A stretch of 64,000 nt of DNA from Nitrospira sp. (GTDB lineage: Bacteria; Nitrospirota; Nitrospiria; Nitrospirales; Nitrospiraceae): the NCBI GenBank assembly GCA_024998685.1, contig JACOEH010000005.1, forward strand, positions 1 through 64,000, read 5' to 3'. The notes under the pieces are model-generated. The model did not search any database. It worked only from the letters and a program-made list of their open reading frames with translations, and was not told the origin of the DNA. The position numbers and the translations under genes are program-made. Below, piece after piece: positions 9,846 to 64,000 of the stretch (its first letter is position 1; every line of letters starts with the position of its first letter).

Positions 9846-9868
9846 CGTGAGGTCGTCGCGACATTCCT

Positions 9869-10912: not shown

Positions 10913-10929
10913 CGTCAACGGAGGAAGCG

Positions 10930-13357: not shown

Positions 13358-13361
13358 GACG

Positions 13362-15903: not shown

Positions 15904-15910
15904 GGAGGGG

Positions 15911-18010
15911 ATGACGAGAAGAGGGTGGGCTATGGGCATTCTGATCTTGCTCTACATTCCTGTCGGGCTGGTGGTCGCCGACTATCTGGCGGGCGCGCTC
16001 TTCTATGTGGCGAACAAGACCATGCCGGTCGAGCTCTCCCTCTGGACTTGGCCGGATGCCTGGGACGCGTATCGTGACGACCCGATGCAGCGGCCCCGCT
16101 TGCAGGTGGGAGCCCTGGTCGGATTGGGCTTGGTCATCATCGGGCCTGGACTCGTTTGGCTCGCCCACTGCACGAGACGTCCCTCGTTGCACGGCGACGC
16201 GCGGTTTGCGTCGCGGTCGGAAATTCGCGAGGCCGGGCTCTTCGGCACGGACGGGATCGTCGTCGGCAAAGACGGACGCCGGTTCCTGCTCTATCCCGGG
16301 CAGGAATTCGTGTTGGTGGCCGCGCCGACCCGCTCCGGCAAAGGCGTGAGCCTCGTCATTCCGAATCTGCTGAACTTTCACGGCTCGGTGGTCGTGCTCG
16401 ACGTCAAGATGGAAAACTTCGCCTACACCTCACGGTTCCGGGCCGCGCATGGACAAGCAGTGTTCCTGTTCAATCCCTTTGCCGAGGACTTCCGAACGCA
16501 TCGGTGGAATCCGTTGGACGGGGTGAGTCGCTCGCCCCTGACCCGCATCGGGGATATTCAGGCCATTGCGCAGGTGTTGTATCCCACCGAACACGTGAAA
16601 GAGGCCTTTTGGAGTGAATCTGCACGCAATCTCTTCTTGGGCCTCACCCTCTATCTGCTCGAAACCCCGACGTTGCCCTGTACGTTGGGCGAACTATTGC
16701 GGCAAGCCTCCGGCAACGGCGCCCCGATGAAAGAGTATCTGAGCGGGATCATCGCGCAACGCGCCACCGGCGAGCAGGCCTTGAGCCAGGAATGTCGCGA
16801 GGCGTTACAGCGCTTTTACCACAACTCCGAGAATACCCTGGCGAGCATCCTGGCCACCTTCGTGGCACCCCTCACCATTTTCAGTAACCCCATCGTGGAT
16901 GCGGCCACCTCCGCGACCGACATTTGGGTGGACGACGTGCGGCGCCGACGGATGTCGATCTATGTCGGCATCCCACCGAATCGGTTGAGCGAGGCGTCGC
17001 TCCTCGTCAATTTGTTCTTCTCGCAGTTGATCCAGAAAAACACCCAGGAGCTTCCGGCGCGCAACCCCTTGCTGCAATACCCCTGTTTGCTCCTACTCGA
17101 TGAGTTCGCGGCCTTGGGCCGGGTGGACATCATCGCGAAGAGCGTCGGTTTTCTCGCCGGCTACAACCTCCGACTCATGCCGATCGTGCAAAGCCTGTCG
17201 CAGCTGCAGGGGGTCTACGGGGACCGCGACGCGCGCACGCTTGTGACCAATCACGGCTGCCAGGTGGTGTTTGCGCCACAAGAACAGGCGGACGCCGAGG
17301 AGTATTCGAAAATGCTCGGTACCTATACGGCGAAGGTGCGGTCCACCGGCCAGAGCCATCCGCGTGGCTTCAGCAGGGGACAGCAGGCCTCGCGGAGCAC
17401 CCACGAATCTGAACAGGCGCGGCCTCTCTTGTTACCGCAAGAGCTCCGGCAGCTAGGCGAAGACCAGGCGATCATCCAGATCCGAGCATGCAAGCCGATC
17501 CTCTGCCGAAAGGCTCGGTTCTATGACGATGAAACCTTTCTGAGTCGTCTCCGTGGCGTCAGTCCCTCTCTGGCTGACTGCGGAAATCGTATCCCATCGC
17601 AAGCGGAACTGGAACAGGCCGCGCTCGTCCTGGGAGAATTGTCGATCGAGGTGCCGCGTCTCGATGTGGATCTCCATCGCGCGCGCGTAGAACAGCGGAG
17701 GCGACCGCTCCAGGCCGGCGAACCGATCGATGTGGCGAAATTGGCGGTTGATCTGTCGACGTTACCACCCGTGACAACCGACCAGCCGCCAGACCCTGAG
17801 TACGTGCAGCGATTCGTGGATGCCTATTTCGACCAATTGGAATGGGTCTCCAAAGAACCGGCACCGAACGGTTCAGGAGCCGTCGAGTCTGATGAGCAGG
17901 AGCGGGAGGAAGGCGGAGCCGCACGAACAGCCGGTGTGATGGGGGAGCCGGTGAAGACGCAGGTGGGCAGGGCGACAACGGTGGATCTCTCGGTGCTCGA
18001 TATGGACTGA
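15911..18010 (+). CDS. virD4: VirD4/TraG coupling protein
   Basis: Inner-membrane ATPase that delivers the substrate to the T4SS channel. 699 residues from the ATG at 15911, just after GAGGAGGGG; longer readings run inside virB11 and are not supported. Two N-terminal helices (about 8-34 and 66-90) precede the ATPase domain: Walker A APTRSGKGVS near 138 and Walker B PCLLLLDEFAALGRV near 393, plus the LATFVAPLTIFSNPIVDAA all-alpha region. The C-terminal 100 residues are charged and variable. It implies conjugative transfer. Confidence 0.92.
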   Translation: MTRRGWAMGILILLYIPVGLVVADYLAGALFYVANKTMPVELSLWTWPDAWDAYRDDPMQRPRLQVGALVGLGLVIIGPGLVWLAHCTRRPSLHGDARFASRSEIREAGLFGTDGIVVGKDGRRFLLYPGQEFVLVAAPTRSGKGVSLVIPNLLNFHGSVVVLDVKMENFAYTSRFRAAHGQAVFLFNPFAEDFRTHRWNPLDGVSRSPLTRIGDIQAIAQVLYPTEHVKEAFWSESARNLFLGLTLYLLETPTLPCTLGELLRQASGNGAPMKEYLSGIIAQRATGEQALSQECREALQRFYHNSENTLASILATFVAPLTIFSNPIVDAATSATDIWVDDVRRRRMSIYVGIPPNRLSEASLLVNLFFSQLIQKNTQELPARNPLLQYPCLLLLDEFAALGRVDIIAKSVGFLAGYNLRLMPIVQSLSQLQGVYGDRDARTLVTNHGCQVVFAPQEQADAEEYSKMLGTYTAKVRSTGQSHPRGFSRGQQASRSTHESEQARPLLLPQELRQLGEDQAIIQIRACKPILCRKARFYDDETFLSRLRGVSPSLADCGNRIPSQAELEQAALVLGELSIEVPRLDVDLHRARVEQRRRPLQAGEPIDVAKLAVDLSTLPPVTTDQPPDPEYVQRFVDAYFDQLEWVSKEPAPNGSGAVESDEQEREEGGAARTAGVMGEPVKTQVGRATTVDLSVLDMD

Positions 18011-26159: not shown

Positions 26160-27035
26160 CTAATGACGGAAACGGGGGGTCCAGGATTCGATTAAATCTT
26201 CCTCCTCTTTTTCTACTTCCTCGTCAGGCAGCTCGATGTCGGAAAGGACAGTGAGTGTTTTGCCATAGCTGCCGAGCCCGACCACATCTTCTGTCACTTC
26301 AATATTCCGGTCGCAACTAAACCATTCCTGGAGATTGGCCGTGCCTTGGGTTCGTGCACCACGTTGAACTTTGTTTGAGTCCAGGTTCAGTTGGAACGTC
26401 GCTGAAGTGCGCGGAACTGGTTGTCCTTTCTTAAGCCAGGTGATGCCTTCGATTTCTTTAAAGGCGTCTGACATACAGCAATAATCGATTTTGTTGGCGG
26501 TGCTGACAACAATGGCCATCGGGTCGCCGGTACAGTCGATCACGCGGATGGCTGTTGCGAGTAGCGATGTGTTGCATGCATCGGCGAGTGATTCGATGGC
26601 AGCTAAGCCTGTGCCGGTGCGACGAAGTATGGGAAGAAAAAGGTGGCTAGGCATAAGGAAGCCGGCAGCAAAATGATCTGCTTCTACTTCATAACTATTG
26701 GAGGATGTAAACCCGGCATGTGATTCATGCACATTGCTTTTGCCTAGCACTGCATCGATATGTCCTGGAAGAAAGTAGTGGCCGAGTTCATGGCTGATGC
26801 TAAATCTTTGAAACGGGATGTTGTCGATATGTGTGGCGTAGCCGATGGCAAAGAAGTTCCCGACACGGATGAGCATTCCAGAAACGCCGGCACTGGAGGA
26901 AGGTTTTGGACGGATTTCGATTTTGCGGCCGCTGGCTATTGCAAAAGGGTCGATGGGCAAAGCATTGATCCCCAAGTCTCCAATGAGTTTTTCGGCAGCG
27001 CGTGTTGCAAAATGAAAGTCTTCGTCCTTCGGCAT
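26160..27035 (-). CDS. ImmA/IrrE-family metallopeptidase
   Basis: A 291-residue predicted cytoplasmic zinc protease of the COG2856 type. The active site is HELGH in ISHELGHYFLPGH, followed by NSYEVEADHFAAGFLMP, which gives the third metal ligand (Glu/Asp about 40 residues later). The C-terminal 100 residues are acidic. It starts on the base after the XRE stop (TAGATG), so the two genes are tightly coupled. Known ImmA-type proteins cleave the partner repressor to induce a mobile element or stress response. The likely target here is the adjacent XRE protein. Confidence 0.88.
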   Translation of the reverse strand: MPKDEDFHFATRAAEKLIGDLGINALPIDPFAIASGRKIEIRPKPSSSAGVSGMLIRVGNFFAIGYATHIDNIPFQRFSISHELGHYFLPGHIDAVLGKSNVHESHAGFTSSNSYEVEADHFAAGFLMPSHLFLPILRRTGTGLAAIESLADACNTSLLATAIRVIDCTGDPMAIVVSTANKIDYCCMSDAFKEIEGITWLKKGQPVPRTSATFQLNLDSNKVQRGARTQGTANLQEWFSCDRNIEVTEDVVGLGSYGKTLTVLSDIELPDEEVEKEEEDLIESWTPRFRH

Positions 27036-27377
27036 CTATTTCCCCTGCGACTTCTTTGCAAGCAGCTCGATGAGGTCATCGGCAAATTTGCGGTCGTCGC
27101 CGTGGAGCGCGTTGTAGTGCCGATGAAGCCTGTCAGCATCGGCCAGAGCGGTGAAGTCATCGACGCGACCGAGCAGGTAGTCGGTTGTGACATCGAGCGT
27201 GTCCGCGAGAAGACGCAAATTATCGAAGGATGGTTTCCGAGCACCGGTTTCAAAATGAGAAATCGCCGAAGGCTGAAGATCAGCGCGTTTGGCAAGCTCG
27301 CCTTGACTGAATCCTCGGTACTCTCTTGCACTGCGGAGACGGTCCGGAAACATTTCTGATGGGCTTGATTGTGGCAT
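27036..27377 (-). CDS. XRE-family transcriptional regulator
   Basis: A 113-residue DNA-binding protein with a helix-turn-helix at about 10-65 (RLRSAREYRGFSQGELAKRA, QPSAISHFETGARKPSFDNL) and a short alpha-helical tail. No ribosome site precedes the ATG at 27377, but a TATACT-like -10 box lies eight bases before it on the minus strand, so a leaderless message is possible. It is coupled to the ImmA gene and divergent from the ubiquitin-like operon, whose promoter overlaps its start. Confidence 0.88.
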   Translation of the reverse strand: MPQSSPSEMFPDRLRSAREYRGFSQGELAKRADLQPSAISHFETGARKPSFDNLRLLADTLDVTTDYLLGRVDDFTALADADRLHRHYNALHGDDRKFADDLIELLAKKSQGK

Positions 27378-27393
27378 GACGATTTAGTATAAT
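27365..27393 (+). promoter_or_regulatory. promoter of the ubiquitin-like operon, overlapping the XRE start
   Basis: TTGATT (27365-27370), 17-bp spacer, perfect TATAAT (27388-27393), pointing to the operon that starts at 27506. It overlaps the first codons and -10 region of the divergent XRE gene, so the XRE protein could control both directions. The leader to 27506 is about 105 bases. Confidence 0.6.
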
Positions 27394-27505
27394 TAAAGTT
27401 GACGGTTAGTGCATGGCCCAGCGAGGGCTTTTTATTTGGGTTTACGGTTGACGAATTCGTCTCATTGTAGATGACCATTTCACTATAAGCAAGGAGGAAG
27501 ATCAT

Positions 27506-27760
27506 ATGAAAGAAGATCACGAGAAGCAGTTCACCATTATCGTAAACGGCCGCGCCAAGGTTGTGACCGAAAGGAAACTGACCTATGCCCAGATCGTCGC
27601 ACTGGCTTTCGATAATCCACCGACAGGTGAGAACGTTGCCTTCACGATTACCTATAGGAAGGGTGAAGGGAACAAGCCGGAAGGGACGCTAGTGGAGGGC
27701 GAAACGGTCAAGATCAAGGAGGGCATGATCTTCAATGTCACAGCTACTAATAAATCGTAG
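27506..27760 (+). CDS. ubiquitin-like protein (multiubiquitin domain), single domain
   Basis: An 84-residue beta-grasp protein of the bacterial multiubiquitin family: KQFTIIVNGRAKVVTERKLT (first hairpin), YAQIVALAFDNPP (helix), NVAFTITYRKGEGNKPEGTL (strands) and the ending VKIKEGMIFNVTATNKS. Only one domain is present, whereas many relatives carry tandem copies. The C-terminus is not a Gly-Gly tail; it ends in Asn-Lys-Ser, so a trimming step or a different attachment chemistry would be needed if it is conjugated. A strong AAGGAGG site precedes it and it overlaps the E1-like gene. Confidence 0.85.
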   Translation: MKEDHEKQFTIIVNGRAKVVTERKLTYAQIVALAFDNPPTGENVAFTITYRKGEGNKPEGTLVEGETVKIKEGMIFNVTATNKS

Positions 27761-28913
27761 TCCTGATTTAAAACGGATTCGAGATGAGGGATATGATGTT
27801 CGGGTGAAAAGCGGGCATTTGGTGGTTGGAAACATTCCATATGTGAATGCCGCGAGAGAGATCAAGCGTGGCACGCTAGTTTCGAAACTGAATCTTGCAG
27901 GGGACGTGACGACGAGACCAGATACGCATGTGGCCTATTTTGCGGGTGAGTATCCTTGCAACAGAGATGGGTCAGAATTGGGGAAAATACGTCACGCCAG
28001 CGGACCACAGCAGCTCGCGGAAGGCCTTGTGGTGCAGCATTCTTTCTCGGCGAAGCCGTTAAGCGGCGGCTACCGCGATTATTATGACCAAATAACGACA
28101 TATGCGGCCATACTGTCAGGTCCTGCTGAAGCAATTGATCCGACCGTAACAGCCAAAGGCTTTCCGGTCGTTCAGGCAGAGGCAGATGAATGTGTCTTCA
28201 ACTATATCGATACAGCCTCAAGCCGAGCCGGTATCAGCATGGTTATGATGAAGCTGGAGATTCCAAAGATTGCGATCGTCGGCTTAGGGGGGACAGGTTC
28301 ATACGTATTGGACTTGGTTGCGAAAACCCCGGTTAGAGAGATCCATCTGTTTGATGGAGACAAGTTTTTGCAGCATAACGCATTCAGATCACCGGGAGCG
28401 GCATCTATCGAAGAGTTGCAGGAATCGCCAAAGAAGGTAATCTATTACAGGAATCGGTACATGAAGATGCGGCGCGGTATAGTAGCGCACGAATACCACA
28501 TCGACGCTACAACGGTTGAGCAACTCCGTGGCATGGATTTCGTATTCTTGTGCATTGATGGTGGAGCTGTGAAACGGCTCATCATCAAGAAATGTGAAGA
28601 ATTCGGTATTGGTTTTATAGATGTTGGCATGGGAGTTGAGCTTGTCGATGGCAGCCTCATAGGAATTCTGCGGGTCACCACGAGTACGGTTAAACAGCGC
28701 GACCATGTTGAAAAACGGGTGTCTTCTTTAGAGGGTGACGGCAATGACGACTATTCCAGGAATATACAGATCCCAGATCTAAACGCTTTGAACGCCACAT
28801 TAGCCGTTATTAAATGGAAAAAGCTGATGGGATTTTATCTCGATCTTGAGAACGAGCACCATAGCACCTATACAATCGATGGCAATACTGTGACGAATGA
28901 CGATCGACCATGA
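27735..28913 (+). CDS. DUF6791-ThiF fusion, E1-like activating enzyme
   Basis: 392 residues. Residues 1-165 form the DUF6791-type domain (LLINRSPDLKRIRDEGYDV; AYFAGEYPCNRDGSELGKIRH; YDQITTYAAILSGPAEAIDP). From about 178 comes a ThiF/E1 adenylation domain with the nucleotide loop IVGLGGTGSYVLDLV (around 182-190), HLFDGDKFLQHNAFR and FVFLCIDGG. Such proteins activate the C-terminus of a ubiquitin-like protein by adenylation. The gene overlaps the ubiquitin-like gene by 26 bases and DUF6527 by 4 bases. No separate E2 gene is present nearby; the DUF6791 half might supply that role (inference). Confidence 0.85.
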   Translation: MSQLLINRSPDLKRIRDEGYDVRVKSGHLVVGNIPYVNAAREIKRGTLVSKLNLAGDVTTRPDTHVAYFAGEYPCNRDGSELGKIRHASGPQQLAEGLVVQHSFSAKPLSGGYRDYYDQITTYAAILSGPAEAIDPTVTAKGFPVVQAEADECVFNYIDTASSRAGISMVMMKLEIPKIAIVGLGGTGSYVLDLVAKTPVREIHLFDGDKFLQHNAFRSPGAASIEELQESPKKVIYYRNRYMKMRRGIVAHEYHIDATTVEQLRGMDFVFLCIDGGAVKRLIIKKCEEFGIGFIDVGMGVELVDGSLIGILRVTTSTVKQRDHVEKRVSSLEGDGNDDYSRNIQIPDLNALNATLAVIKWKKLMGFYLDLENEHHSTYTIDGNTVTNDDRP

Positions 28914-47111: not shown

Positions 47112-48452
47112 TAGGTGTGTAAATAGAATCAGGCGGCGACCTCCGTTTGCACCTGCTTACCATCCGCAAATCGGACTCCTCGATAGACCAGCGGCATAAG
47201 CTCCGGATGTTTCACGCGACGGAAGACTTGTTCTGCCACCAAGAGCATCTTCCAGATTACCGCCGTCGCGTTCTTGACCAGCTTGAAGCGCTTCGCTGCA
47301 TCTGTCCGCAAGCGGGCCGCAGCAAACGGCGATTCGACGGGATTCGACGTCCGCAGATGTTGCCAGTGCGGCTGCGGGAATCGGTAGAAGGCCACCAGCC
47401 GCTCCCAATCCGCCATGAGACACTTGGCCGCGTCGGCATCGCCGTGCTGTCCGCACCAGGCCACAAACTGGTCGCGCCGTCGCTCCGCCTCCCGGCGTGT
47501 CGGCGCTGCCGGAATCTGTCGGAGCAGCGCCGTGCCCGCGACTTGTTGCCGTTTCGGGAGCTTATCGAGCACATTGATGATCTTGTGATTCCAACAGCGT
47601 TGCTCCTCGGCTTCAGGATAGACGTGACGCAACGCCTTCCAGATCCCCAGATGCCCATCGCCGACCACGAGCTGTGGCGGCCGCAACCCGCGTTCCCGCA
47701 GATCGCGAAGCACCGCGCCCCAACTCTCAGTCGATTCCCGATACCCCGGCGTGACGGCTAGCACCACCTTCCGCCCATCGCTCAACGCCGCCAGGACCAC
47801 GAGCAGTGCGGCCTTCTCCTTCTCCAACCCGGCCTTCACATAGATCCCGTCGACCCAGCAATACACGACTTCCAGGTCATCCACGCGTCGGGTTTGCCAG
47901 AGGGCTAAGTCTTCCTGCCATTTCTCCTTGAGCCTCGCCACGGTCGAGCCCGACAGCGGCGCTCCCTCCCCGAACAGCCCCCGCAGCGCCAGCTCAAAGT
48001 CCCCCAGGGCCAACCCATGAAGATAGAGCTCCGGGACGACCGCCTCGATCGTCGTGCTCTTGCGCTTGAACAACGGTAACACCTACTGACAAACCGGGCT
48101 TCCGTGTCCCGCACCCGCGGCCGTTGTACCATGATCGTGCCACAGCTCAGGGTCAAGCGACGGGCTTCCCATAGCCATTCCGATAGCCGCGCGCATCGAG
48201 CGGAGACCGACGCTGCGATTTCTGACGCCCCAAGAACTCACTGACTTCCTGCTCCAGCACCTGCTGGATAAAGCCTTGCACGTGGCCACGGACCCAGGTT
48301 TCCAAGTTCTCCCACCTCACACTTGACGCCTCACGAGCCGTTGTGCTCTGCTTCTCCATGGCGGTGTCGTCCTCCTCTCTGGCTGAGCATCTCAGCCGGT
48401 TGGGTTTGGTCACCCGCGAGGATACACCGCCTTCATCTCATTTACACACCTA
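47112..48452. mobile_element. IS256-family insertion sequence (decayed)
   Basis: A 1341-bp element bounded by inverted repeats TAGGTGTGTAAAT (47112-47124) and ATTTACACACCTA (48440-48452), perfect over 13 bases. It contains one leftward transposase gene of the IS256/Mutator type, inactivated by two frameshifts. No clear target-site duplication flanks it (CCTGTCAA on the left, CTGCTTAT on the right), consistent with later deletion next to it. Confidence 0.8.
47129..48413 (-). pseudogene. IS256-family transposase broken by two frameshifts
   Basis: The N-terminal part (48413-48153) includes RWENLETWVRGHVQGFIQQV, QEVSEFLGRQKSQRR and GYRNGYGKP and ends at a frameshift. A short middle segment in a second frame gives LTLSCGTIMVQRPRVRD. 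The catalytic part in a third frame (48082-47129) has the Mutator DDE features: VVYCWVDGIYVKAGLEKEKA (first Asp), QLVVGDGHLGIWKAL with the C-x2-H-like EEQRCWNHKIINVLDKLP, and RTSNPVESPFAAARLRT (catalytic Glu). Joining the frames gives the usual length of about 400 residues. One missing base at about 48160 and one at about 48083 explain the breaks. Confidence 0.82.
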
Positions 48453-48828: not shown

Positions 48829-49467
48829 TCAGATTCGTATCTTCTTGGCGAGCGAGAGCGCCCTCCGCTGATCCATGCCGAGATAGTGGGCGGTACTCCC
48901 AATGTTCTTATGACCGAGCAGATGCTGGCAGGCAGCCAGATCCTTGGTGGCTTGATAGATCGCCGCTGACTTTGATCGCCGCATTGAATGGGTGCTGTAG
49001 CGTTTCCAATTCAAATCCGCGTACGAGACCCAGCGCTTCACCAGATTGGCATACTGCTCGCGCGTCAGATACACCCCGGTCTTCCGATTCCCGATACTCG
49101 TCCACAGGTACGCCCCTGGTCCTTTACGTGAGGCCGCAATCCACGCGGCCAGCGAGTCGCGGGTCTCCCGCGAAAGTGCGACCACATGACTCCGACCGGT
49201 CTTCCGCTGCCGGATCGGAAACTCCTCGACGACCCGCCCGCGATGATCGGTGACTTGCCGAACGCGCAACGGCAACAGATCCGAGGCCCGCAACATCGTA
49301 TCGAGGGCCGTATTGAAGAGAGCCAGATCCCGCATCTTCTGTTCGGCGGTCAGCTTGGCACGAATCAAAGCGGCCTGGGCGGCGGTGAGCGGGGACATTT
49401 GACCCACCGCGACTCGTTTATTCCATGGCGGGCGGGGAGGGCGCTTCACGAAGGGTTTCGCGGGCAT
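48829..49467 (-). CDS. short tyrosine recombinase (phage-type integrase)
   Basis: A 212-residue site-specific recombinase with a full catalytic set: R60 (TMLRASDLLPLRV), K89 (RQRKTGRSH), H160xxR163 (YSTHSMRRSKSAA), H186 (LLGHKNIGS) and nucleophile Y195 (TAHYLGM). The N-terminal core-binding domain is very short (about 40 residues) compared with typical 350-400-residue ICE integrases. It sits at the right end of the mobile region, reading inward, with an imperfect inverted repeat about 35 bases upstream of its start. It probably moves this island or a gene cassette. Confidence 0.87.
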   Translation of the reverse strand: MPAKPFVKRPPRPPWNKRVAVGQMSPLTAAQAALIRAKLTAEQKMRDLALFNTALDTMLRASDLLPLRVRQVTDHRGRVVEEFPIRQRKTGRSHVVALSRETRDSLAAWIAASRKGPGAYLWTSIGNRKTGVYLTREQYANLVKRWVSYADLNWKRYSTHSMRRSKSAAIYQATKDLAACQHLLGHKNIGSTAHYLGMDQRRALSLAKKIRI

Positions 49468-50129: not shown

Positions 50130-52277
50130 CTATGCTGCCCGTTTCCGCCGTTTTCGAGAGACTACCCGTGAAAGCAGCTGCGTAAATTCTTCTGCCGACA
50201 TTGGTCGCCCAAAGTAATGTCCCTGGACTTCATCACACCCCTGCCCGCGCAGAAGCGTCAACTGTTCGTCAGTTTCCACTCCCTCAGCCAGTACGGACAG
50301 ATTCATACTGTGCGCCAAGGAGATGATCGCGCGAGTAATGGAGGCATTGGCCGAGTTGCTCGTCACGTCTCGAGTGAATGATTGGTCGATCTTGAGCATG
50401 TTCAACGGAAACCGTTGCAGATGGCTCAACGAGGAATAGCCGGTTCCAAAATCATCGATCGACAGCCGAACACCCATGGCCCTGAGTTCCAGCAGCATGG
50501 TGATGGACGTCTCCACATCCCGCATGGTGATCGATTCCGTCAACTCCAATTCGAGAGATTCCGGATTGAGCTGGGTTTCCCCCAACGCCTTCGCAACGGC
50601 ATTCGTCAACGAGGCTCCATGGAAGAATAAATTGGAGACATTCACGGACATTCGAATTGGAGTGTACCCGGCATCTTGCCAGGCTTTGTTTTGTCGGCAG
50701 GCCATGAGCAACACTTCGTCATCCACTTTTTGAATCATTCCCGTTTCTATTGCAACAGGGAGAAACACAGCAGGCAGCAGCATTCCCCGCTGAGGATGAC
50801 GCCACCGGACCAGCGCTTCTGCACCCACGATCCGGTTGGTCCGGATGTCCACTTGCGGCTGGTAATACACAATCAACTCATGGCATTCCAGCGCCTTCCG
50901 CAGGTCATTTTCCATCGCGAGTCGCTCCGTGGCCATTGCATTCATGGCCGCTGAATAGAACTGCGCGTTGTTCCGGCCCTGTTCTTTGGCGTGATACATC
51001 GCAACGTCCGAACTCTTCAGGAGGAGATCCACCGAATCCCCATCGGTGGGGAAGATCGCGATCCCCACACTGACGGTTACGGAAATCTCATGCCCATCGA
51101 TTAAGAAGGACCTCGCCAAGGCTTCCAATATACGGCGGGCCACCGTCCCGGCATCCTGAGCAGCCCGGATGTTCGTCAACAATACAGTAAATTCATCGCC
51201 ACCCAAGCGGGCGAGTTCATGCGTCTCATCCTTTTCCACCGACCGGCCGACAGAATCGCTGTGCCTAATCGAGTCCGACAAACGGTCCGCTACCTGTTTC
51301 AAGAGTAAGTCCCCGACAGTATGGCCCAACGTGTCGTTGATGACTTTGAATCGGTCCAAGTCGAGAAACAGCACCGCGAGCGTCGACTGGTAGCGGCGCG
51401 CATGGGCAAGCGCTTGCGTGACACGATCCTTGAATAACACACGGTTGGGCAGCCCGGTTAGGCTATCGTAATACGCCAGCCGGTGGATTTCCCGCTCCGA
51501 GCGTTTTCGTTCACTGATGTCCTGCGCCGTCCCCACAATTGTGGGGGCTTTCAGCTGATCATCGAATACGGCCTCGGCCTGCAGATTCACGGTAAACTCA
51601 TGCCCGTTCGGCAGCACGATTCGATGGTCCATATCACAGGGCTTTCGTTCCCTGAGGATCAACGTCAGCGCCTGGTCGACGCGCTCGCGGTCTTCCTGAT
51701 GAACAGCATGAAGAAACGCCTCCTTGGTCCCCCCGAAGTCTTGTTGTCGAATTCCCATCAACCGACAGAGTTCCGGCGATGCCGTAAAGTGATCAGTGAA
51801 GGGATGCCACTCCCAATCGCCGATCTTGGCGATCCGCTGCGCCAGACTGAGTCTCGTTTCGCTACGCAGGAGCGCGTTCAACGTGACGCTCCCCCGCAAC
51901 ATGTACCGGACTCGATGTCCCAAGATCGTCGCATTCATCGGTTTGGTGATGAAATCGGTGGCACCGCACTCATACGCGCGGGCGATCGAGTCAGCATCGT
52001 CCAAGGCCGTCATAATCAGAATCGGCACACGGCTCCCTTCCACCGACTCACGCAGTTTTGCGCAAGTGGCAAACCCATCCATCACGGGCATCACCACGTC
52101 CATGATGATAAGATCCGGACGCCGACATACAAACTGCTCTAAGGCTCGCGTACCGTTCGACGCCTCACACACATCGAACCTCGCCTGTTCGAGGGCCTCG
52201 CGTACGAACATTCTGACCAATTCCTCATCGTCGACCACAAGGACTAATGAGGAAGTCTTCTCGTCTTCCCTTTGCAT
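50130..52277 (-). CDS. response regulator with PAS, GGDEF and EAL domains
   Basis: A 715-residue c-di-GMP turnover protein. The receiver domain (10-125) has phosphoacceptor D60 in LIIMDVVMPVMDGF. A PAS/PAC sensor follows (about 145-265, ending DISERKRSEREIHRLAYYDS). The GGDEF domain (about 275-440) has an intact RLGGDEFTVLL and the EAL domain (455-705) has GAEALVRW and the IDDFGTGYSS loop. Both catalytic signatures look intact, so it may synthesise and degrade c-di-GMP. It is the last gene of the leftward operon and the likely phosphorylation target of the hybrid kinase encoded just upstream. Confidence 0.92.
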   Translation of the reverse strand: MQREDEKTSSLVLVVDDEELVRMFVREALEQARFDVCEASNGTRALEQFVCRRPDLIIMDVVMPVMDGFATCAKLRESVEGSRVPILIMTALDDADSIARAYECGATDFITKPMNATILGHRVRYMLRGSVTLNALLRSETRLSLAQRIAKIGDWEWHPFTDHFTASPELCRLMGIRQQDFGGTKEAFLHAVHQEDRERVDQALTLILRERKPCDMDHRIVLPNGHEFTVNLQAEAVFDDQLKAPTIVGTAQDISERKRSEREIHRLAYYDSLTGLPNRVLFKDRVTQALAHARRYQSTLAVLFLDLDRFKVINDTLGHTVGDLLLKQVADRLSDSIRHSDSVGRSVEKDETHELARLGGDEFTVLLTNIRAAQDAGTVARRILEALARSFLIDGHEISVTVSVGIAIFPTDGDSVDLLLKSSDVAMYHAKEQGRNNAQFYSAAMNAMATERLAMENDLRKALECHELIVYYQPQVDIRTNRIVGAEALVRWRHPQRGMLLPAVFLPVAIETGMIQKVDDEVLLMACRQNKAWQDAGYTPIRMSVNVSNLFFHGASLTNAVAKALGETQLNPESLELELTESITMRDVETSITMLLELRAMGVRLSIDDFGTGYSSLSHLQRFPLNMLKIDQSFTRDVTSNSANASITRAIISLAHSMNLSVLAEGVETDEQLTLLRGQGCDEVQGHYFGRPMSAEEFTQLLSRVVSRKRRKRAA

Positions 52278-52323
52278 ATCGGTAAAAGTTGGTTTCCTTA
52301 CTGCCCCAGAGATTTACAATGAC

Positions 52324-55200
52324 TTAGGCGGCTTCTTTTGCCAACAAGCCTTCGATCGATCGCTTCGCTCGAAGATATTCCTTTTCGACGTCGGCGAAAG
52401 CAGCCGGTGCCAACGACAAGTCCCCCGAACAAGCTATGGTCTCGAGCTTTTTGATTTGCTCGGCCAATGTTCTCGCACCGAACATCCCGCTGCTTGATTT
52501 GAGGGAATGTGCAGTTTGGAATAACTCAGCGGCGTTCTGCGCAGCGATGTGCTTCCTCATAGCCTCGATAGATTGCCTCGAAGCATCTAGGTATCGAGAC
52601 AATAGGTCAACATAGATATCTGGTCTGCCGGGGCGGCGAAGGGCGCGTATGCCTTGCAAAGTTCCTTCGTCCAGGCAATCGGTAGACTCGCTCACGGCGG
52701 CAACAACCGATGCGGCCTGACCAATGCTGTCAGGCGTGTTCGAAGAAGATGATCTACTCTGCGACACCCACCGTCGCACCACAGTAATGAGTTGGTGTTG
52801 TCTGAATGGCTTGCTCAAATAATCATCCATGTCTTGAGCTAAACAGCGCTCCCGATCTCCAGCAATCGCATGGGCGGTTAAGGCGACGATCGGCACTCGT
52901 GGGAGCCCGAGATCTTTTTCCCGGATACGGATTGCAGCCGTAGCAGCAAATCCATCCATCTCAGGCATCTGACAATCCATAAACACCAAATCGAACGTGC
53001 GGTTCATCATTGCTTCAACGGCTTCACGCCCGTTGCACGCGGTATGAGCATGATACCCTTCGACCGCAAGCATCTCCGCCGTGACTTCTCGATTCACCGG
53101 ATTGTCCTCTGCCACTAAGACAGACACATCTTTCCGGGGTTCCTGATGGGTCCTTTCAACAGGCATGGGCTCGGGCAAAGCCGAACTCCCTTTCCCTGTC
53201 ATGGCGAGGGCAATGAGACGATTGTAGAGGTGGGATTGATGCACGGGCTTGGTAATCGAACCATCAAGCTCCCCGGCAACATCCGAGGCAAGCCATCGTT
53301 CGTCTTGCCCCATTGAGGTCAGCATGATGATTTTTATCCTCGCCAGCCGACTGTCAGCTCGTATGGCTCTGGCCAATTCAAACCCAGCCATTTCTGGCAT
53401 TTGCCCGTCGATAAGGGCCAGATCGTACAGTGCCTGTGGGCCCGACACATTACGAATGATTTCTAACGCTTCTTTGCCAGATGATACAGTCATGTGAGCA
53501 ATACCCCATCCATTCAGGTATTGGCCAAGAATGTGGCGGCTGGTCGCATTGTCGTCGACCACGAGCACGCGCATCCGGCGGAATGCGTCACAGGCCTCCC
53601 AGCGTTTCGATTCGCCCTTGAGCGACCGAGAGAACGGTACCTTTAACCAAAACGTCGAACCAGCTCCCAAGGAGCTTTCGACACCGATTGTTCCGTTCAT
53701 CAGACGCACCAGCTGCTTAACGATGGTTAAGCCCAGCCCCGTCCCACCGAACTTCCTCGTGGTTGATCCATCCGCTTGCGAGAACGCCTCGAAGATCTTT
53801 TCTTGCACGGAAGGGGCGATTCCTAATCCCGTATCCTTTACCGCTAGGCGGAGCGTGACCAGATCGGCCTTCTCTTCGACGTGAGATACCGACAGCACAA
53901 TTTCTCCTTGTTCTGTAAACTTGACGGCATTCCCCACGAGATTCACGAGGATTTGGCGCAGTCGTGTGACATCTCCTCTCAAATGCCTCGGCACCCCGTC
54001 GAGAATATTGGAAACTAACTCGACCTGTTTCGACTGCACTCGGTGCGCAAAGAGATCCATCACCTCCCCAATCAACTCCTTCAAATCGAAGTCGCTGTTC
54101 TCTAATTGCAATTTACCTGCTTCAATCTTGGAAAAGTCCAGGATATCATTCACCACGTCGAGTAGGGTGATACCTGATTTATCCACAATCTCGACAAACC
54201 GCCGCTGTTTATCCGTCAACTCGGTATGAAGCAATACCTGTGTCATTCCCAGAACTCCGTTCAGTGGAGTTCGAATCTCATGACTCATGTTGGCTAAAAA
54301 TTCTGTCTTCGCCTGACTTGCCGCCTGGGCTTTCTGAGCCAACTCCACCGCCTCATGCGTTTTCTCTTCAAGCTCTTTCGTCCGCTCTTCGACCTTCGTT
54401 TCCAGGGTACGCTGGTATTGCTGAACCTCCTCCTGAGAGGAGGCCAGCCGCTCGACCATCTTATTAAAGGATTCCGCCAACGTCCCGATTTCATCCCTGC
54501 TTGTCACCACCACAGATTGCCGAAAGTCTCCCCCGGCAATCCGTCCTGTTGCTTCGACAAGGTCTTGAACGGGATGAATAAACCGACGGATCAGAAGCAA
54601 GGTCACCATGACACCGACCAATACGACGGCAAATGTTAGGGAGCCGATCCAGAGCAGATACCCGTAGAGTTCTGCGCTCAATCGCTCTTCGCTGAGCCCA
54701 AGCCTCAGATGTCCGATCACTTTTTCTGAAGGATGGGAGTGAAGCTCATCGGCAAATAGGTTGGAATTTGCTCGCGACTCAATCGCGACATGAATATCAA
54801 CATGCCGTCGCCCGCTCTGGTGATCAAGGACCTCTGAGAACGTAGCGCCCGTTGAAAGCGGACCAGACTGAACCGCATTTTCCATCGCATCGTTCGAAAC
54901 CCGATCCTTGGCCTCCTGAATCAATGGATTGTTGTTGGCGTTGTGGATCACCACATACGCGAAATCCGGATCCATCCGCGCACTATTTACAATTACTTTG
55001 AGCGTCTCGACATTCTCTGTATAGACTCCGTATTCGCTGGCCTGCGCCAATATGCCGGCGGTAATCATGCCACGGTGGACTAATTCATCCCGAGTGCTCG
55101 TCACCTCACGATACAGCGCCAGAGAACCGATACTGATCGCAGTCATCAACATAACCGCGATCGTGAGGAGATTGAATTTGGTGGTCAGGCTCGTCTTCAT
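52324..55200 (-). CDS. hybrid sensor histidine kinase
   Basis: 958 residues from the ATG at 55200, which lies 11 bases after the upstream stop; a longer reading overlaps the previous gene. Two membrane helices (about 10-28 and 185-205) enclose a periplasmic sensor domain. Then come HAMP, a coiled coil, HisKA with the phosphorylated His near 306 ([19 protein letters not shown]), HATPase ([16 protein letters not shown]), two receiver domains ([11 protein letters not shown]... and [12 protein letters not shown]...) and a C-terminal HPt domain ([15 protein letters not shown]). It is a BarA-type phosphorelay kinase, probably listening to the substrate-binding protein encoded before it. Confidence 0.92.
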
Positions 55201-55210
55201 CGAGAAGCTG

Positions 55211-56164
55211 TCACTGGAACACCTGGCTTGCTCTATCAATGACCTGTTGAGGTAACTCAATGTTCATCGACCGAGCGGTTTTCAAATTAACCGAGAAGAG
55301 CACCTTCCTTGGGGGATCCACCTGAATCGACCGAGGATTCGTCTTGTTCAGAATTTTGACGGCGATTTCCGCACATTGGTTTCCGATGTCGCCATAATCC
55401 CGTTCTAGGGCATACAAGGAGCCGGCCTTGACCCATGGAGCCGACAATCCGGCAAATGGAATCTTGTTCCGAAACGAAAACAGTAAGATAGGCTCGGCCG
55501 TCTGTGACGATACTACTACTTGATCTGTGATACCCCAAAGAACATCCACATTATTCGCCAAACTCTCCAGCGCGTCCGGAATGCCACGAGGTGTCTCAAC
55601 AGGCCTCGGTACGAGCTTGATGCCGAGTTTTTTGGCTAGGTTCTGCGCCTGGTCGATTTTCTCCTGGTTCTCTTGCGGACTGTACAGCACTCCGACGGTC
55701 GCAAGTTCAGGGAGTATCCGTCGCATTACTTCAAATTGGCTTTCCAGGGAAAACTCAAGACCAACCCCGGTCAGATTGCCCTTCTTCCTCAACTTCTCCA
55801 GGTGTGCCGTGAGACTGGCGATCATCGGCACCTTTTCATGTTCAGCAAGGACCGCCTGCGTCGCCAATGATCCCACCGTCAAGAACATCGTCGGGGGCTC
55901 GTTCTTGAAGGGTCGGAGCACGTTCGCAGCATTCTCACTGTTACCCTTCAAATTATGGATTTCGATCTCAGCCTGAACTCCGGCACCAGCCAGAGAGACA
56001 CGAAATCCCTGCACCATATCGGTATAGGGAGACGACTCTTGACTGAGGACAATGACTACCTTGGGCGAGGCCGCCACGACCGGCACCGGCTGATGGCTGA
56101 TCCAGAGGAGCGATCCAGTCGCAAGCCAGCAGCTCATCGCCGTTGCTGTTCGGGGAAATAGCAC
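55211..56164 (-). CDS. ABC-type substrate-binding protein (PF04392 type)
   Basis: A 317-residue periplasmic binding protein with a signal peptide ([19 protein letters not shown]) and a type 1 periplasmic fold: [55 protein letters not shown] and [20 protein letters not shown], ending with a [11 protein letters not shown] helix. No ABC permease or ATPase accompanies it. In this setting it probably presents a ligand to the neighbouring kinase rather than to a transporter. Confidence 0.85.
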
Positions 56165-58502: not shown

Positions 58503-60176
58503 ATGCAGCCCCTCATAGAGATCGCTGAACAACATGTGCTGACGAAACGGCCAATCTGGCGATTTCCGTCAGAAGGCTTAGAGCTCAACTTGGAGGAGCT
58601 GTACAGGCTCTCTCTCCAATACGCACAAAAGTTGGCCGCTCTGGGAATTGGCCATCAAGACAAGGTGGGGCTCGTTTTAGACAACTCCTCAGACTATGTG
58701 GCGCTCATCATTGCGCTGCTCAAACTCAACGCCATTATCGTTCCGCTTCGCCCTAAATGGAATAAGCATACGAAGTGTGACACGTATCTGACCAGGTGTG
58801 ACGATGTCTGCGACTTCAAGCTAGTGCTTTATGAAGATACCGCTCTCGCCAGCGTATTTGAGAGCTGGACAGAAACAACGAGCAAGCCGGCACTCTCCCT
58901 CACTGCCTTCAAATTGAGCCCCGAACTTCCAGACTCCTGTCAACGCCCCAGGACACACCGTCACGATATCGCCGTACTCCAGTTTTCTTCTGGAAGCACA
59001 GGACAACCGAAGGCCGTGATCGTTACACATGGCATGGTAATGGCGCAGCTGGTAAATCTTGTGGAGAATCACACCCGCTCGCGCCGCGGAACTCCCATCG
59101 CGTCCTCCGCATCATGGATGCCCATCCATCACGACATGGGTTTATTTATCGGCGTCTTAAAACCGTTATTCGTCGGGTGTGAGAATTTGCTCGCTCCACC
59201 GAGTTACTACATGCGGAACCCAGGGCGTTGGTTCTCACATTTGTCTACGCACCGCGTCGACTTCACGTTCACCACCAATTCCGCGCTCGCCACGACGCTG
59301 AACTTAATCGCTCGGAAGCTTCAGGGAACTGATATCTCATTGGATGCGCTCCACATCTATATTGTCGCCGAAAAAGTGAGCCCGCTGATGGTACGTCGTT
59401 GCTACGAAATTCTTCCCCAACTGCGCATGCCAACGGATCAGCTGCATGTCGGGTATGGCATGGCTGAAAATGCTTTGGGATGTTCATGCACAAGAACACC
59501 CACCATCAGCATCATACGGTGTCTGATCGACGACCATGGGCACGTCGTCCCCATCGCATCGGATGATTCACGTTCTAATGCAATCGAATTAGTGTCGATT
59601 GGAACGCCTGACAGTCTACATGAGATCACAGTGCGCGACGAGAATGACCGAATCCTACCTGAACTGCACCTGGGCGAAATCAACATTGCAGGGCCCTGTG
59701 TCTCGCCTGGATATCTCAACAATGACGAGGCGACTCGACACGCATTCATCGGTGGGCGATTCCGAAGCGGTGATCTTGGGTTTTTTTACGCGGGTGAACT
59801 CTATTTTTATGGGCGCCGTGACGACATGATTTCCGTAGGCGGACGCAATATTGTGCCAGATGATATCGAAGGGCTGGCAGAGGAATTGCCCTTCATTCGC
59901 CCGACGACAACTTGCTTGATTGGCATAGAAAATGCCTCACAAGGGACAACGGAGCTAGTCCTGTTGGTTGAGATGAGTCCGTTGACTGGGGCAGAGACTT
60001 TAAAAGATTACGCCATGACGGTGCAGCGGCATATCTATTCAGAACTCGTGGTACTGCTCACACATGTGCTCTTTTGCCCCAAAGGAACCATTGAAAAAAC
60101 GTCCAGCGGCAAGAAGCGACGCAAAATCATTCGAACGCGCTTGATGAATAAGCACATAGAAACGATAGGGACTTGA
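58503..60176 (+). CDS. fatty-acyl-AMP ligase-like enzyme (ANL superfamily)
   Basis: A 557-residue adenylate-forming enzyme. Motifs: A3 LQFSSGSTGQPKAVIVTHG near 160-177, the WMPIHHDMGL segment typical of FAAL/FadD32-type ligases, A5 VGYGMAENALG, the RSGDLGFF...GRRDDMISVGGRNIVPDDIE hinge, and a late KTSSGKKRRKIIR lysine. The FAAL-type features suggest activation of a long-chain acid as acyl-AMP and loading on a carrier protein rather than CoA. No carrier-protein gene is in view. It ends immediately before the aminotransferase fusion gene. TTG at 58500 is an alternative start. Confidence 0.83.
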   Translation: MQPLIEIAEQHVLTKRPIWRFPSEGLELNLEELYRLSLQYAQKLAALGIGHQDKVGLVLDNSSDYVALIIALLKLNAIIVPLRPKWNKHTKCDTYLTRCDDVCDFKLVLYEDTALASVFESWTETTSKPALSLTAFKLSPELPDSCQRPRTHRHDIAVLQFSSGSTGQPKAVIVTHGMVMAQLVNLVENHTRSRRGTPIASSASWMPIHHDMGLFIGVLKPLFVGCENLLAPPSYYMRNPGRWFSHLSTHRVDFTFTTNSALATTLNLIARKLQGTDISLDALHIYIVAEKVSPLMVRRCYEILPQLRMPTDQLHVGYGMAENALGCSCTRTPTISIIRCLIDDHGHVVPIASDDSRSNAIELVSIGTPDSLHEITVRDENDRILPELHLGEINIAGPCVSPGYLNNDEATRHAFIGGRFRSGDLGFFYAGELYFYGRRDDMISVGGRNIVPDDIEGLAEELPFIRPTTTCLIGIENASQGTTELVLLVEMSPLTGAETLKDYAMTVQRHIYSELVVLLTHVLFCPKGTIEKTSSGKKRRKIIRTRLMNKHIETIGT

Positions 60177-63167
60177 ATGAGTACCGAATACCCCTACGAC
60201 GAGTACTGCAAACCCAAACTTGCCGACTTGTTAACTGCGATCAAACTGGATGTCGAATTCACTTCGGCTCAGGGGAATTATCTTTCGACCAAGGATGGGC
60301 GTCGAGTACTCGATTTCATCGGGGGATTCGGCGCCACGATTCTCGGACATAACCAATCTGAGCTGGTCGAGGAAACCATTACTGCACTCCGACAAGGTAT
60401 TCCTGTGCACGCTCAAAGCTCCCTTCGAGGTGAAAGTGCTCGCTTAGCTGCCCTCCTGAATCAGTGCACTCCTCCTGGGCATGAGTATTTTGTCCATTTT
60501 ACCAATAGCGGTGGGGAAAGCGTTGAGGCTGCAATCAAGCACGCCTACAAGGTCCACTTCGACAAGGTACGACGGGAGTACGAACGGATTTCACGAGTCC
60601 TCAATGAGTTCTACCATTCACTCGATCGAAGCGGTCTCGACGTGGATTTACCCAACAAAAGTAAAGACCTGACCGACTTTCGAGAGAATCTCGAGGAACA
60701 TAACCTGGCGCAATTTGAAGCATTCCAAAACAATCCAGTCATGGTCGCCCTCAAAGGATCATTTCATGGAAAAACCAGTTCAGCTCTGAAAGTTACCTTC
60801 AACAAGTCCTATCGCGAAGCATACGAGGGACTCTCCGCCATTCGAACGGCATTCATCAGTCCGGATCAGCCCGAGCGGTTGGAAGAGTTGGTAGCTGAAC
60901 ACATCAGTGTCTTCTACTATCCCGTGTTAACAGGCAGGCAAGTCTCTCTGCGCCCAATCAAGATGACCCGAGTCATTGCGTTCATTTTTGAAATCCTCCA
61001 AGGAGAAGGGGGCATGCGGCCGGTCCCTGTCTGCACACTGCAATACCTAGCTGAGGTTCGTCAACGCGTCAAGGTGCCGTTTATCTTAGACGAAATCCAG
61101 ACTGGGTGTGGCCGTCTGGGATCCGTCTACGCCTATACCCAAACTCCGCTCGCACACCATGCCCCCGAATATATCGTCGTGAGTAAGGCATTGGGGGGAG
61201 GATTGGTCAAAATCGGCGCTGCACTGATTCGAAAAGATATCTACGATCAGGATTTCGGTATTCTCCACACCTCCACGTTTGCGGAAGACGAGTTGTCATC
61301 CCGGGTTGCCATCAAGACGCTGCAGCTCCTGACTCGTAACGACGGAGAATTGCTTCGCCAAGTCCAAGATAAGGGTGCGTACCTTCTCCGAGAGTTACGC
61401 TCCTTGCAAACACGCTATCCAAATATTGTCAAAGATGTACGCGGCGCTGGGCTCATGATTGGCGTCGAATTTACCCCCCTGGACGGTCATTCGCCATTTT
61501 TTCGCTCCAGCGGGAAACAAGGCGTTCTGTCACTCCTCATTGCAAGCTATTTACTCGAATATCACAACATCAGATTGCTGGCCCCGCTGTCAACCATGCT
61601 GAAAGGCAATCCGGGAAAACAACGCCTTTCTATTCTTCGCATTCAGCCTTCGCTCACCATCACCATCGAAGAAATCACACTCCTTGTGAATGCGCTGGCC
61701 GAAGTGTTGGAAATTATCGCGCGAAACAATGAGTATTGCCTGACTGCCCATTTAGCAGGCACTCACGTACCAGAGACGATCCGCCGTTCACCGGAACATA
61801 TGGAGGTGAGATGGCCTATCGTCACAGAACATCACCATATCGATGCAAGAGCCGGCTTCGTTATTCACCCCACCACCGTGGACAATTTGATGGAGTACTA
61901 CTTTCCTTCGTTCAACCGCTATCCCTCAATCAAAGAGGGCCTGATCACATGGTGGAATCGCATCGCACGCTTCCTGGAACCGATTCATGTCCGTAGCACC
62001 GTAGTTTCATCGAATGACTTTGTCGTGGAAAATAACCTGGTCTTCGTCCCTTATCTGCCGGATTACATGGTCAGTACAACAACACTACACTTGGTGCAAG
62101 AAATACGCGACAAAGTCCAAGATGCCGTCACGCTGGCAAAAGAATTGGGCGATGACAATATTCCCGTTTCGATGGTCGGACTTGGAGCTTATACATCGAT
62201 CGTGACTCGCAATGCCGAACTCGTCAATGATTATGAAGTTCCGGTGACCACAGGTAATGCCTATACGACGGCGCTGACAATCTGCGGGGTCCTCCATGCC
62301 GCCAAGTTGCGTGGCATTGATTTGCGCCATGCAACGGTGGCCGTCGTGGGGGCTTCGGGAAACATTGGAAGCGTGGTGTCCGAAATTCTGGCCGCATGTG
62401 TCGGACGGTTAAAACTCGTGGGGAGGCCCGGTAAGGACCATCGGCTGCGGTTGAAATTCGTGCGAGAATTATGTTGGCGGAAGCTCTTACGGGTCTTGAG
62501 ACAGGATACCAAAGAGCTGGACGGCCCTACCTACACGCCCGCAGGCGATCTCCTGACCCAAGTGGCCAACGTAATCGAGAAATATCGAGACCAATTTGCC
62601 CAACAGAGCCCGGCACTCTTCCGGGTGCCGGATAACGCACCCATTCCGAAAGACACCGGTTCTCAGTTCGAAAGAGTCCTCGAAGGACTCCACCTTTCAT
62701 CAAAGGAATATCCACCGATTGAGATAGCAATTGGACTCGAATCGTTATCGGACTGTGATGTCGTCGTGGTTGCAACGAATTCTCCCGATTCGAACCTCAT
62801 TCTTCCGGATATGGTCAAACCAGGGGCGTTGGTATGTTGTTCCTCTGTCCCGTCCAACCTGAGCATTCGCTTCGAAGAGGATTTGAATCGCAATCTCGCC
62901 TTCGACGGTGGCTTGGCTCAATTGCCAGAAGGCTCTCGCATCGACTTTGTCGGTATGCCGGGAGGGCGGCTGACTTATGGCTGTCTAGCGGAGACGCTCT
63001 TGCTGGGATTTGATGGAAGAAATCACTCCTTTAGTAAAGGAGCAATCACGAGCGAGCAAGTCTATGAAATTCTCAATATGGCTAAGACGTACGGCTTTTC
63101 CTTGGGCGACATCAAGCTGAACAACCGCATACTAGGCACAGGATTGTCCCCTTCAGGACGTCTGTGA
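60177..63167 (+). CDS. class III aminotransferase fused to acyl-ACP-reductase-like domain
   Basis: A 996-residue two-enzyme fusion. Residues 1-510 are a PLP-dependent class III aminotransferase: FTNSGGESVEAAIKHA, KGSFHGKTSSALKVTF, FEILQGEGGMRPVP, FILDEIQTGCGRLG and the PLP lysine K337 in VVSKALGGG. Residues about 570-990 resemble cyanobacterial long-chain acyl-ACP reductase: GLGAYTSIVTRNAELVNDYE, VPVTTGNAYTTALTICGVLH, the NADPH loop VAVVGASGNIGSVVSEIL (about 721-735) and FDGGLAQLPEGSRIDFVGM. The cysteine that carries the acyl group is not at the exact S. elongatus position; a CC pair (GALVCCSSVP) lies a few residues later. Reduction to an aldehyde followed by amination is the natural reading. 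Confidence 0.83.
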   Translation: MSTEYPYDEYCKPKLADLLTAIKLDVEFTSAQGNYLSTKDGRRVLDFIGGFGATILGHNQSELVEETITALRQGIPVHAQSSLRGESARLAALLNQCTPPGHEYFVHFTNSGGESVEAAIKHAYKVHFDKVRREYERISRVLNEFYHSLDRSGLDVDLPNKSKDLTDFRENLEEHNLAQFEAFQNNPVMVALKGSFHGKTSSALKVTFNKSYREAYEGLSAIRTAFISPDQPERLEELVAEHISVFYYPVLTGRQVSLRPIKMTRVIAFIFEILQGEGGMRPVPVCTLQYLAEVRQRVKVPFILDEIQTGCGRLGSVYAYTQTPLAHHAPEYIVVSKALGGGLVKIGAALIRKDIYDQDFGILHTSTFAEDELSSRVAIKTLQLLTRNDGELLRQVQDKGAYLLRELRSLQTRYPNIVKDVRGAGLMIGVEFTPLDGHSPFFRSSGKQGVLSLLIASYLLEYHNIRLLAPLSTMLKGNPGKQRLSILRIQPSLTITIEEITLLVNALAEVLEIIARNNEYCLTAHLAGTHVPETIRRSPEHMEVRWPIVTEHHHIDARAGFVIHPTTVDNLMEYYFPSFNRYPSIKEGLITWWNRIARFLEPIHVRSTVVSSNDFVVENNLVFVPYLPDYMVSTTTLHLVQEIRDKVQDAVTLAKELGDDNIPVSMVGLGAYTSIVTRNAELVNDYEVPVTTGNAYTTALTICGVLHAAKLRGIDLRHATVAVVGASGNIGSVVSEILAACVGRLKLVGRPGKDHRLRLKFVRELCWRKLLRVLRQDTKELDGPTYTPAGDLLTQVANVIEKYRDQFAQQSPALFRVPDNAPIPKDTGSQFERVLEGLHLSSKEYPPIEIAIGLESLSDCDVVVVATNSPDSNLILPDMVKPGALVCCSSVPSNLSIRFEEDLNRNLAFDGGLAQLPEGSRIDFVGMPGGRLTYGCLAETLLLGFDGRNHSFSKGAITSEQVYEILNMAKTYGFSLGDIKLNNRILGTGLSPSGRL

Positions 63168-63177
63168 GGATTCACCC

Positions 63178-64000
63178 ATGCTCACCGAGATAGCCCAAAA
63201 GCCGATCGGTCCATTCAAAGACCACCATTCCATACGGAGCATAGCCGATATCGTCGATAGCCACCTCAGCGCATACCGCAACCGCCCCGCAATCCGTTAC
63301 AATACGGGTACGACGTACGTAACAGTCTGTTTTGACGCCTATCTTGGACATCTCAACGCCACAATTCGTGCCATCAAGGCGCGCGGCCTTGAACAAAAAG
63401 TCTTCGCATCATTTTGCAACAATCGCTTAGAATGGGATGTTACCGCCCTGGCAGTTTTCTACACCGCAAACATTCTGTTTCCCCTCGACACAAAGTTGAA
63501 CGATGCGGAACTTAAACATGTCCTATCGATAAATCCGCCCGACTACGTCCTCGTCAGTCTGGCGCAAGTCAAGCGACTTCGTTCCGTATTGGACGAGTTA
63601 TCGATTACTCCTCATGTATTCGTGGCGGATTTATGCTCGATATTTGAAGATGAGCATGTACCGCCCGTTGAGTTGCGACAGGGGGAGCTAAGCTTTAAAC
63701 ACGTTCTGGCTACTGTCGATTCCTCCATTGAAATTGTCGCAAGCCCCCAGCTTAAGATTACGGATACCATTCTCGGCCACTATCCAACATCCGGGACAAC
63801 CACTCTTCCGAAAATCGTTCAGATCACACACGGCAACATTGTGGCTCAAATCAATGAAACGGTCGACCTCATCAATTTAAGGAACAACGAAGATCTATTG
63901 AGTATGAACTCCTATGCACACATCGTCATGCTGACAGAGTTTCTGGTGACCAAAATGCGTGGATTCACCGTTACGTATTTTACGCGGGAACCCGATGAGG
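63178..64000 (+). CDS. second AMP-forming acyl ligase (ANL superfamily), partial
   Basis: 274 codons translated by hand from the ATG at 63178, open to the right edge. The N-terminal domain of an acyl-CoA synthetase/NRPS-type adenylation enzyme: RNRPAIRYNTGTTYVTVCFD, FYTANILFPLDTKLNDAELK (A2-like) and A3 HYPTSGTTTLPKIVQITHGN at about 199-220. It starts 11 bases after the aminotransferase fusion and is clearly co-transcribed. It could activate a second acid or amino acid to be joined to the product of the upstream enzymes. Confidence 0.8.
   Translation, partial: MLTEIAQKPIGPFKDHHSIRSIADIVDSHLSAYRNRPAIRYNTGTTYVTVCFDAYLGHLNATIRAIKARGLEQKVFASFCNNRLEWDVTALAVFYTANILFPLDTKLNDAELKHVLSINPPDYVLVSLAQVKRLRSVLDELSITPHVFVADLCSIFEDEHVPPVELRQGELSFKHVLATVDSSIEIVASPQLKITDTILGHYPTSGTTTLPKIVQITHGNIVAQINETVDLINLRNNEDLLSMNSYAHIVMLTEFLVTKMRGFTVTYFTREPDE

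Follow-up and report, generated by a model that had tools for sequence, protein, structure and literature searches.

A predicted fatty acid-to-fatty amine cassette built around an aminotransferase/acyl-ACP reductase fusion in Nitrospira

Comparison with enzymes of known antibiotic pathways has indicated that a cassette of four genes in a Nitrospira genome very probably converts a fatty acid to a fatty amine, a judgement that covers the acid-to-amine steps and leaves aside the role of the second ligase. The cassette specifies, in this order, a fatty acyl-AMP ligase (FAAL), a fusion of a class III aminotransferase with an acyl-ACP reductase-like domain, a second adenylating enzyme (ANL2), and an acyl carrier protein (ACP). 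The fusion type is already known; what appears to be undescribed is the four-gene cassette with its constant second ligase, of which a search of the open-access literature found no description. A conversion of acid to amine that is otherwise familiar from a small number of antibiotic pathways would thereby extend to a nitrite-oxidising nitrifier and take the form of a four-gene unit that is common to distant bacteria and in which the second ligase is constant. As a short operon, the cassette is directly testable for enzymatic fatty-amine production, and nitrite oxidisers, a group of environmental importance, may through it prove to contain a new lipid that serves in membranes or as a signal.

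Organization of the cassette

The window, which is the whole 64,000-nucleotide stretch of DNA that was analysed, comprises positions 1-64000 of a 134-kb contig belonging to a 4.8-Mb Nitrospira genome. The genus assignment draws on the 18-base Ntspa662 probe site of Nitrospira (PMC5256632, PMC3359442), which is present in 10 of 59 congeners searched, among them the second cassette carrier (G044), whereas the reversed control sequence gave no hit; the assembly itself yielded no 16S rRNA gene. The coordinates, order, and plus-strand location of its three final open reading frames, first given in a reading made from the letters of the DNA (the sequence-only reading), were all confirmed (Table 1). 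The three genes are tightly packed: the FAAL stop is at 60176 and the fusion starts at 60177, while a 10-base gap lies between the fusion and ANL2. (The FAAL start is an ATG at 58503, with an in-frame TTG at 58500.) ANL2 is 614 aa at full length and ends at contig position 65022, outside the window; a carrier-protein gene, which the sequence-only reading had suggested looking for past 64 kb, is indeed present at the end of the operon. Promoter and terminator scans gave nothing above shuffled sequence.

Table 1. Features of the Nitrospira cassette (window numbering, which equals contig numbering)
Feature	Position	Strand	Description or basis
FAAL (gene 1)	58503..60176	+	Stand-alone fatty acyl-AMP ligase, 557-558 aa
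Aminotransferase/acyl-ACP (thioester) reductase fusion (gene 2)	60177..63167	+	996 aa, predicted TamH/KecF type
Class III PLP aminotransferase domain, N-terminal (about aa 1-515)	60177..61721	+	Pfam and PDB matches
K337 codon, PLP-binding lysine (VSK337ALGG)	61185..61187	+	21-homologue alignment
Acyl-ACP reductase-like domain, C-terminal (about aa 552-996)	61830..63164	+	TIGR04058, PigE model, 6jzq/6jzu
GxxGxxG nucleotide-binding loop (G725 A S G728 N I G731)	62349..62369	+	Homologue alignment
C936 codon, predicted catalytic cysteine of the reductase domain	62982..62984	+	Alignment with the S. elongatus enzyme
ANL2 (gene 3, second adenylating enzyme)	63178..64000 in window	+	First 274 of 614 aa
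ACP	65047-65358, outside window		103 aa, stand-alone

The product of gene 1 matches the AMP-binding family (Pfam, E 1.6e-50), and fatty acyl-AMP ligases are among its best NCBIfam and PDB matches. It matches the FAAL structures 3kxw, 3pbk, and 4r0m in an alignment that spans their post-A5 insertion, and the C-terminal lysine (TSSGK) is retained. By its AMP-binding fold, its FAAL-specific insertion (aligned with 3kxw), and its C-terminal catalytic lysine, gene 1 is thus a predicted FAAL, in keeping with the acyl-AMP ligase that had been called from the sequence. The earlier call of another adenylating enzyme after the fusion also stands, since the full 614-aa ANL2 protein matches AMP-binding at E 1.1e-32 (Pfam); its alignment is that of an acyl-CoA-ligase-type enzyme in which the FAAL insertion is absent. 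(An AlphaFold2 model of ANL2 built from six sequences has a pLDDT of 52.7 and is too poor for use.) The ACP has a PP-binding match (E 6.9e-9) and an LDSMG motif.

The aminotransferase/reductase fusion

The N-terminal half of the fusion is a class III aminotransferase. Aminotran_3 matches across aa 26-470 (Pfam, E 2.6e-57), and the aminotransferase CrmG of caerulomycin (PDB 5dds) matches across aa 10-510 (E 2.3e-57). An AlphaFold2 model of the fusion is confident (pLDDT 83.5, pTM 0.80) and has two domains, of which the N-terminal one has CrmG as its closest fold (Foldseek, TMt 0.88). The PLP-binding lysine that had been proposed from the sequence, K337, is invariant across 21 homologous fusions, which together with the family match upholds that assignment.

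The C-terminal 445 aa match the long-chain acyl-ACP reductase model TIGR04058 at 4e-18 and the PigE model at 3e-26. When used alone in phmmer, this half matches the acyl-ACP reductase structures 6jzq/6jzu at 5.6e-13, and no PDB entries other than acyl-ACP reductase and PigE match it at 1e-6 or better. A profile of 15 such reductase domains finds 6jzq at 3.8e-44 and PigE (4ppm) at 2.6e-51. The possibility that this half is closer to some other dehydrogenase family, raised in the sequence-only reading as one that would overturn it, finds no support in these searches, as the next unrelated family comes in only at about 1e-6. Within the domain, columns 725 and 728 of the nucleotide-binding loop are invariant among fusion homologues and column 731 is nearly so. 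An NADPH loop had been placed at about residues 721-735; the position holds, with the GxxGxxG at 725-731 falling inside it, and the cofactor may be NADPH or NADH.

In the phmmer alignment, the catalytic cysteine of the acyl-ACP reductase from S. elongatus (Synechococcus), C294, falls opposite C936, which is nearly invariant among fusion homologues. C887, a candidate catalytic cysteine taken from the PtTamH paper's own C887 numbering, was rejected, because the alignment with the cyanobacterial reductase points to C936. C887-C888 of the Nitrospira fusion instead form a motif of the cassette clade, VCCxSVPSN, where most other fusions have VCD. In the cassette fusions this site (aa 883-894, window about 62823-62858) has two adjacent cysteines, within the sequence VCCxS[VI]PSN in those fusions that were read, and most other fusions have VCD[IV]ARP there (in the G936 fusion the pair C883-C884 alone was checked). 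A fusion homologue of Embleya scabrispora (L038 8674-11703) has a reductase half without cysteines equivalent to C936 and C887, and this half may therefore be inactive.

Distribution and selection

Two Nitrospira genomes and four from the Gammaproteobacteria have the cassette in fixed gene order; the latter four are Kangiella taiwanensis, G495, which belongs to the same taxonomic order as Kangiella, and G936 and G945, which belong to the same class. The six corresponding fusions group in a single clade with support of 100/100, separate from all other sampled fusions. Between Nitrospira and K. taiwanensis the identities are 47% for FAAL, 58% for the fusion, 58% for ANL2, and 30% for the ACP. 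For ANL2, the Nitrospira protein is 57-59% identical to the four gammaproteobacterial orthologues, which occupy the same place in the cassette, and the Kangiella protein is 64-66% identical to those of G936/G945. Across the clade ANL2 is at least as well conserved as the fusion and better conserved than FAAL, and for this reason it is regarded as an integral part of the cassette.

The cassette proteins of the second Nitrospira genome (G044) are 92-96% identical. Between these two copies the cassette is under purifying selection, with dN/dS values (Nei-Gojobori, from this one genome pair) of 0.11 for FAAL, 0.18 for the fusion, 0.19 for ANL2, and 0.37 for the ACP. The cassette is nonetheless rare within the genus, as the fusion is found in 1 other genome among 99 relatives searched, and in a phylum sample of 296 genomes the present Nitrospira genome alone has the cassette. 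This patchy distribution makes it likely that Nitrospira obtained the cassette horizontally.

In all four gammaproteobacterial copies the cassette is followed by genes for a LolA-like protein and for an MMPL transporter. Interspersed with these, or beyond them, the two Kangiella-type loci have genes for a desaturase-type (desaturase/AlkB-like) membrane enzyme, a ferredoxin reductase, and a FabH-like protein. A search of the whole Nitrospira genome found no LolA-like gene; consequently, export by Nitrospira, if there is any, would differ from that of the gammaproteobacterial clusters.

Comparison with known systems

The sequence-only reading knew of no standard pathway with this exact fusion. 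This turns out to be wrong, since TamH and KecF share its domain order (PMC9594044, PMC6498172). The closest tested enzyme is PtTamH, from the pathway for tambjamine YP1 in Pseudoalteromonas tunicata, which has the same order of an N-terminal class III aminotransferase and a C-terminal acyl-ACP-reductase-like domain. Together, PtTamA and PtTamH convert a C12 acid to a C12 amine with ATP, NADH, and L-Glu; PtTamH uses NADH and does not accept acyl-CoA (PMC9594044). TamH has 941 aa and its PLP lysine is K340, compared with 996 aa and K337 in the Nitrospira fusion, and both have an adenylating enzyme and an ACP as partners (PMC9594044). However, TamA is a ligase fused to its ACP, whereas the Nitrospira cassette has separate ligase and ACP genes (PMC9594044). 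In addition, the Nitrospira-type cassette always has a second ligase, and no bipyrrole genes were seen nearby. In KecF of koreenceine (Pseudomonas koreensis) the two domains and their order, N-terminal aminotransferase and C-terminal reductase, are again the same, and the activities are predicted; its proposed substrate is polyketide-extended and its product cyclises (PMC6498172), whereas no gene for a ketosynthase was noted next to the Nitrospira cassette. (The kinship of the Nitrospira fusion to PtTamH and KecF is judged from the order of the domains, from the families they have in common, and from residues as described in the papers.)

More distant relatives supply one or both halves. PigE of prodigiosin (Serratia, PDB 4ppm) has the same two activities in one protein, with evidence for both, and matches both halves of the fusion by profile, but its reductase comes first, the reverse of the Nitrospira order (PMC8341465). 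CrmG, the nearest solved structure to the aminotransferase half at about 29% identity, is without a reductase domain, unlike the fusion. The cyanobacterial long-chain acyl-ACP reductase (PDB 6jzu, TIGR04058) has the family, nucleotide loop, and catalytic cysteine seen in the fusion, but it is a stand-alone enzyme that feeds an alkane-forming oxygenase. Since the PLP lysine, a GxxGxxG domain, and a C294-equivalent cysteine are all found in the Nitrospira protein, it is predicted to be a fusion of the TamH/KecF type, and the cassette would be an uncharacterised variant of the TamA/TamH pathway.

Proposed pathway and the role of ANL2

In the proposed pathway, FAAL would adenylate a free fatty acid and load it onto the operon's stand-alone ACP. 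The C-terminal domain of the fusion would then take the acyl chain onto C936 and reduce it to the aldehyde with NAD(P)H, and the N-terminal domain, with PLP on K337, would transaminate the aldehyde to a primary fatty amine; the amino donor is probably glutamate. We infer the FAAL loading, the C936 reduction, and the K337-PLP transamination from homology to the PtTamA/PtTamH cascade. The idea that a carrier-bound acyl chain passes through the aldehyde to the amine on one polypeptide, already put forward in the sequence-only reading, is well supported by this homology, by the residues that are kept, and by the adjoining FAAL and ACP genes, and it has a precedent in the activity of PtTamA plus PtTamH (PMC9594044).

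What ANL2 does and what the cassette finally makes are matters of guesswork. Because ANL2 is not required in the TamA/TamH scheme, the Nitrospira pathway probably has at least one further step, in which this acyl-CoA-synthetase-like enzyme would take either the amine or another acid as its substrate; the preferred guess is that ANL2 supplies an activated acid with which the amine is N-acylated. The addition of a further acid by the second ligase, which the sequence-only reading had suggested, is a possibility.

A different and less probable reading, with the evidence of the flanks against it, is that the aldehyde or amine is a building block that goes at once into a larger product, with ANL2 loading or joining a second block. 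All characterised relatives of the fusion do feed a larger natural product (PMC9594044, PMC6498172, PMC8341465), and ANL2 is kept in every copy of the cassette. However, the lists of open reading frames that flank the Nitrospira copy, between window position 30 kb and contig position 90 kb, show no PKS, NRPS, or bipyrrole (MBC) genes (the last as read by eye and in part by Pfam), and the Kangiella neighbours comprise the desaturase/AlkB-like enzyme, the ferredoxin reductase, exporter genes, and a single FabH-like gene.

Residues at the ANL2 active site bear on a further alternative, namely that the Nitrospira ANL2 is accessory or inactive (for instance, a paralogue that binds the carrier or has a regulatory function) and that free fatty amine is what the operon makes. 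In both Nitrospira copies the A10 (adenylation) lysine is an asparagine (TPTHN vs TPTHK) and the A8 lysines are lost, whereas a lysine is still present at A10 in the four gammaproteobacterial copies. Nevertheless, the dN/dS of ANL2 resembles that of the fusion, which argues that ANL2 is still constrained, and a lysine two residues further on could substitute; this alternative is considered unlikely.

If ANL2 does activate an acid for N-acylation, as preferred here, the cassette might specify an undescribed class of N-alkyl amide lipid, made from the amine and the ANL2-activated acid, that in the Gammaproteobacteria would be carried to the outer membrane by the LolA-like and MMPL proteins and whose genes Nitrospira would have gained horizontally. 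In this complete form the proposal is speculative and rather improbable.

Finally, it is very improbable that the product is a fatty aldehyde (or an alcohol or alkane precursor) and that the reductase alone matters next to a vestigial aminotransferase half: although the reductase is related to that of the alkane pathway, the PLP lysine is invariant in the 21 homologues, the entire fusion is under purifying selection, and TamH transaminates in vitro (PMC9594044).

Genomic surroundings

The gene 3' of the ACP is a response-regulator/histidine kinase, and the opposite strand 5' of the cassette encodes a TonB receptor, an ABC-type binding protein, and a sensor kinase. The response-regulator/sensor-kinase genes on the two flanks (window 50130-55260, minus strand; L002 11433-12656, plus strand) have receiver domains that look alike, and these genes might regulate the cassette or sense its product.

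The remaining flanking open reading frames include mobile-element-like genes. A transposase-like frame and tyrosine-integrase-like fragments are located at window 47129-48082 and 48829-49467 (both minus strand) and at L002 16648-17121, and the integrase-like fragments are alike on either side of the cassette. Further upstream, at window 7024-18010, the translations of the open reading frames reveal a run that resembles type IV secretion or conjugation genes (VirB4-, B6-, B8-, B9-, B10-, B11-, and VirD4-like). Judged from these translations, an integrative element may be situated close to the amine cassette. That the contig is misbinned, or that the operon is decaying mobile-element cargo, is highly doubtful: the conjugation-type and integrase/transposase-like frames elsewhere on the contig and the rarity of the fusion among relatives would fit such an origin, but homologues of the adjoining sensor kinase elsewhere in the genus are 69-97% identical to it, a second genome of the genus has the cassette, the reading frames are intact, and dN/dS is well under 1. 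Elsewhere in the window, at 26160-28913, a metalloprotease-like frame is situated opposite a ThiF/E1-like frame, and the two could belong to a defence island.
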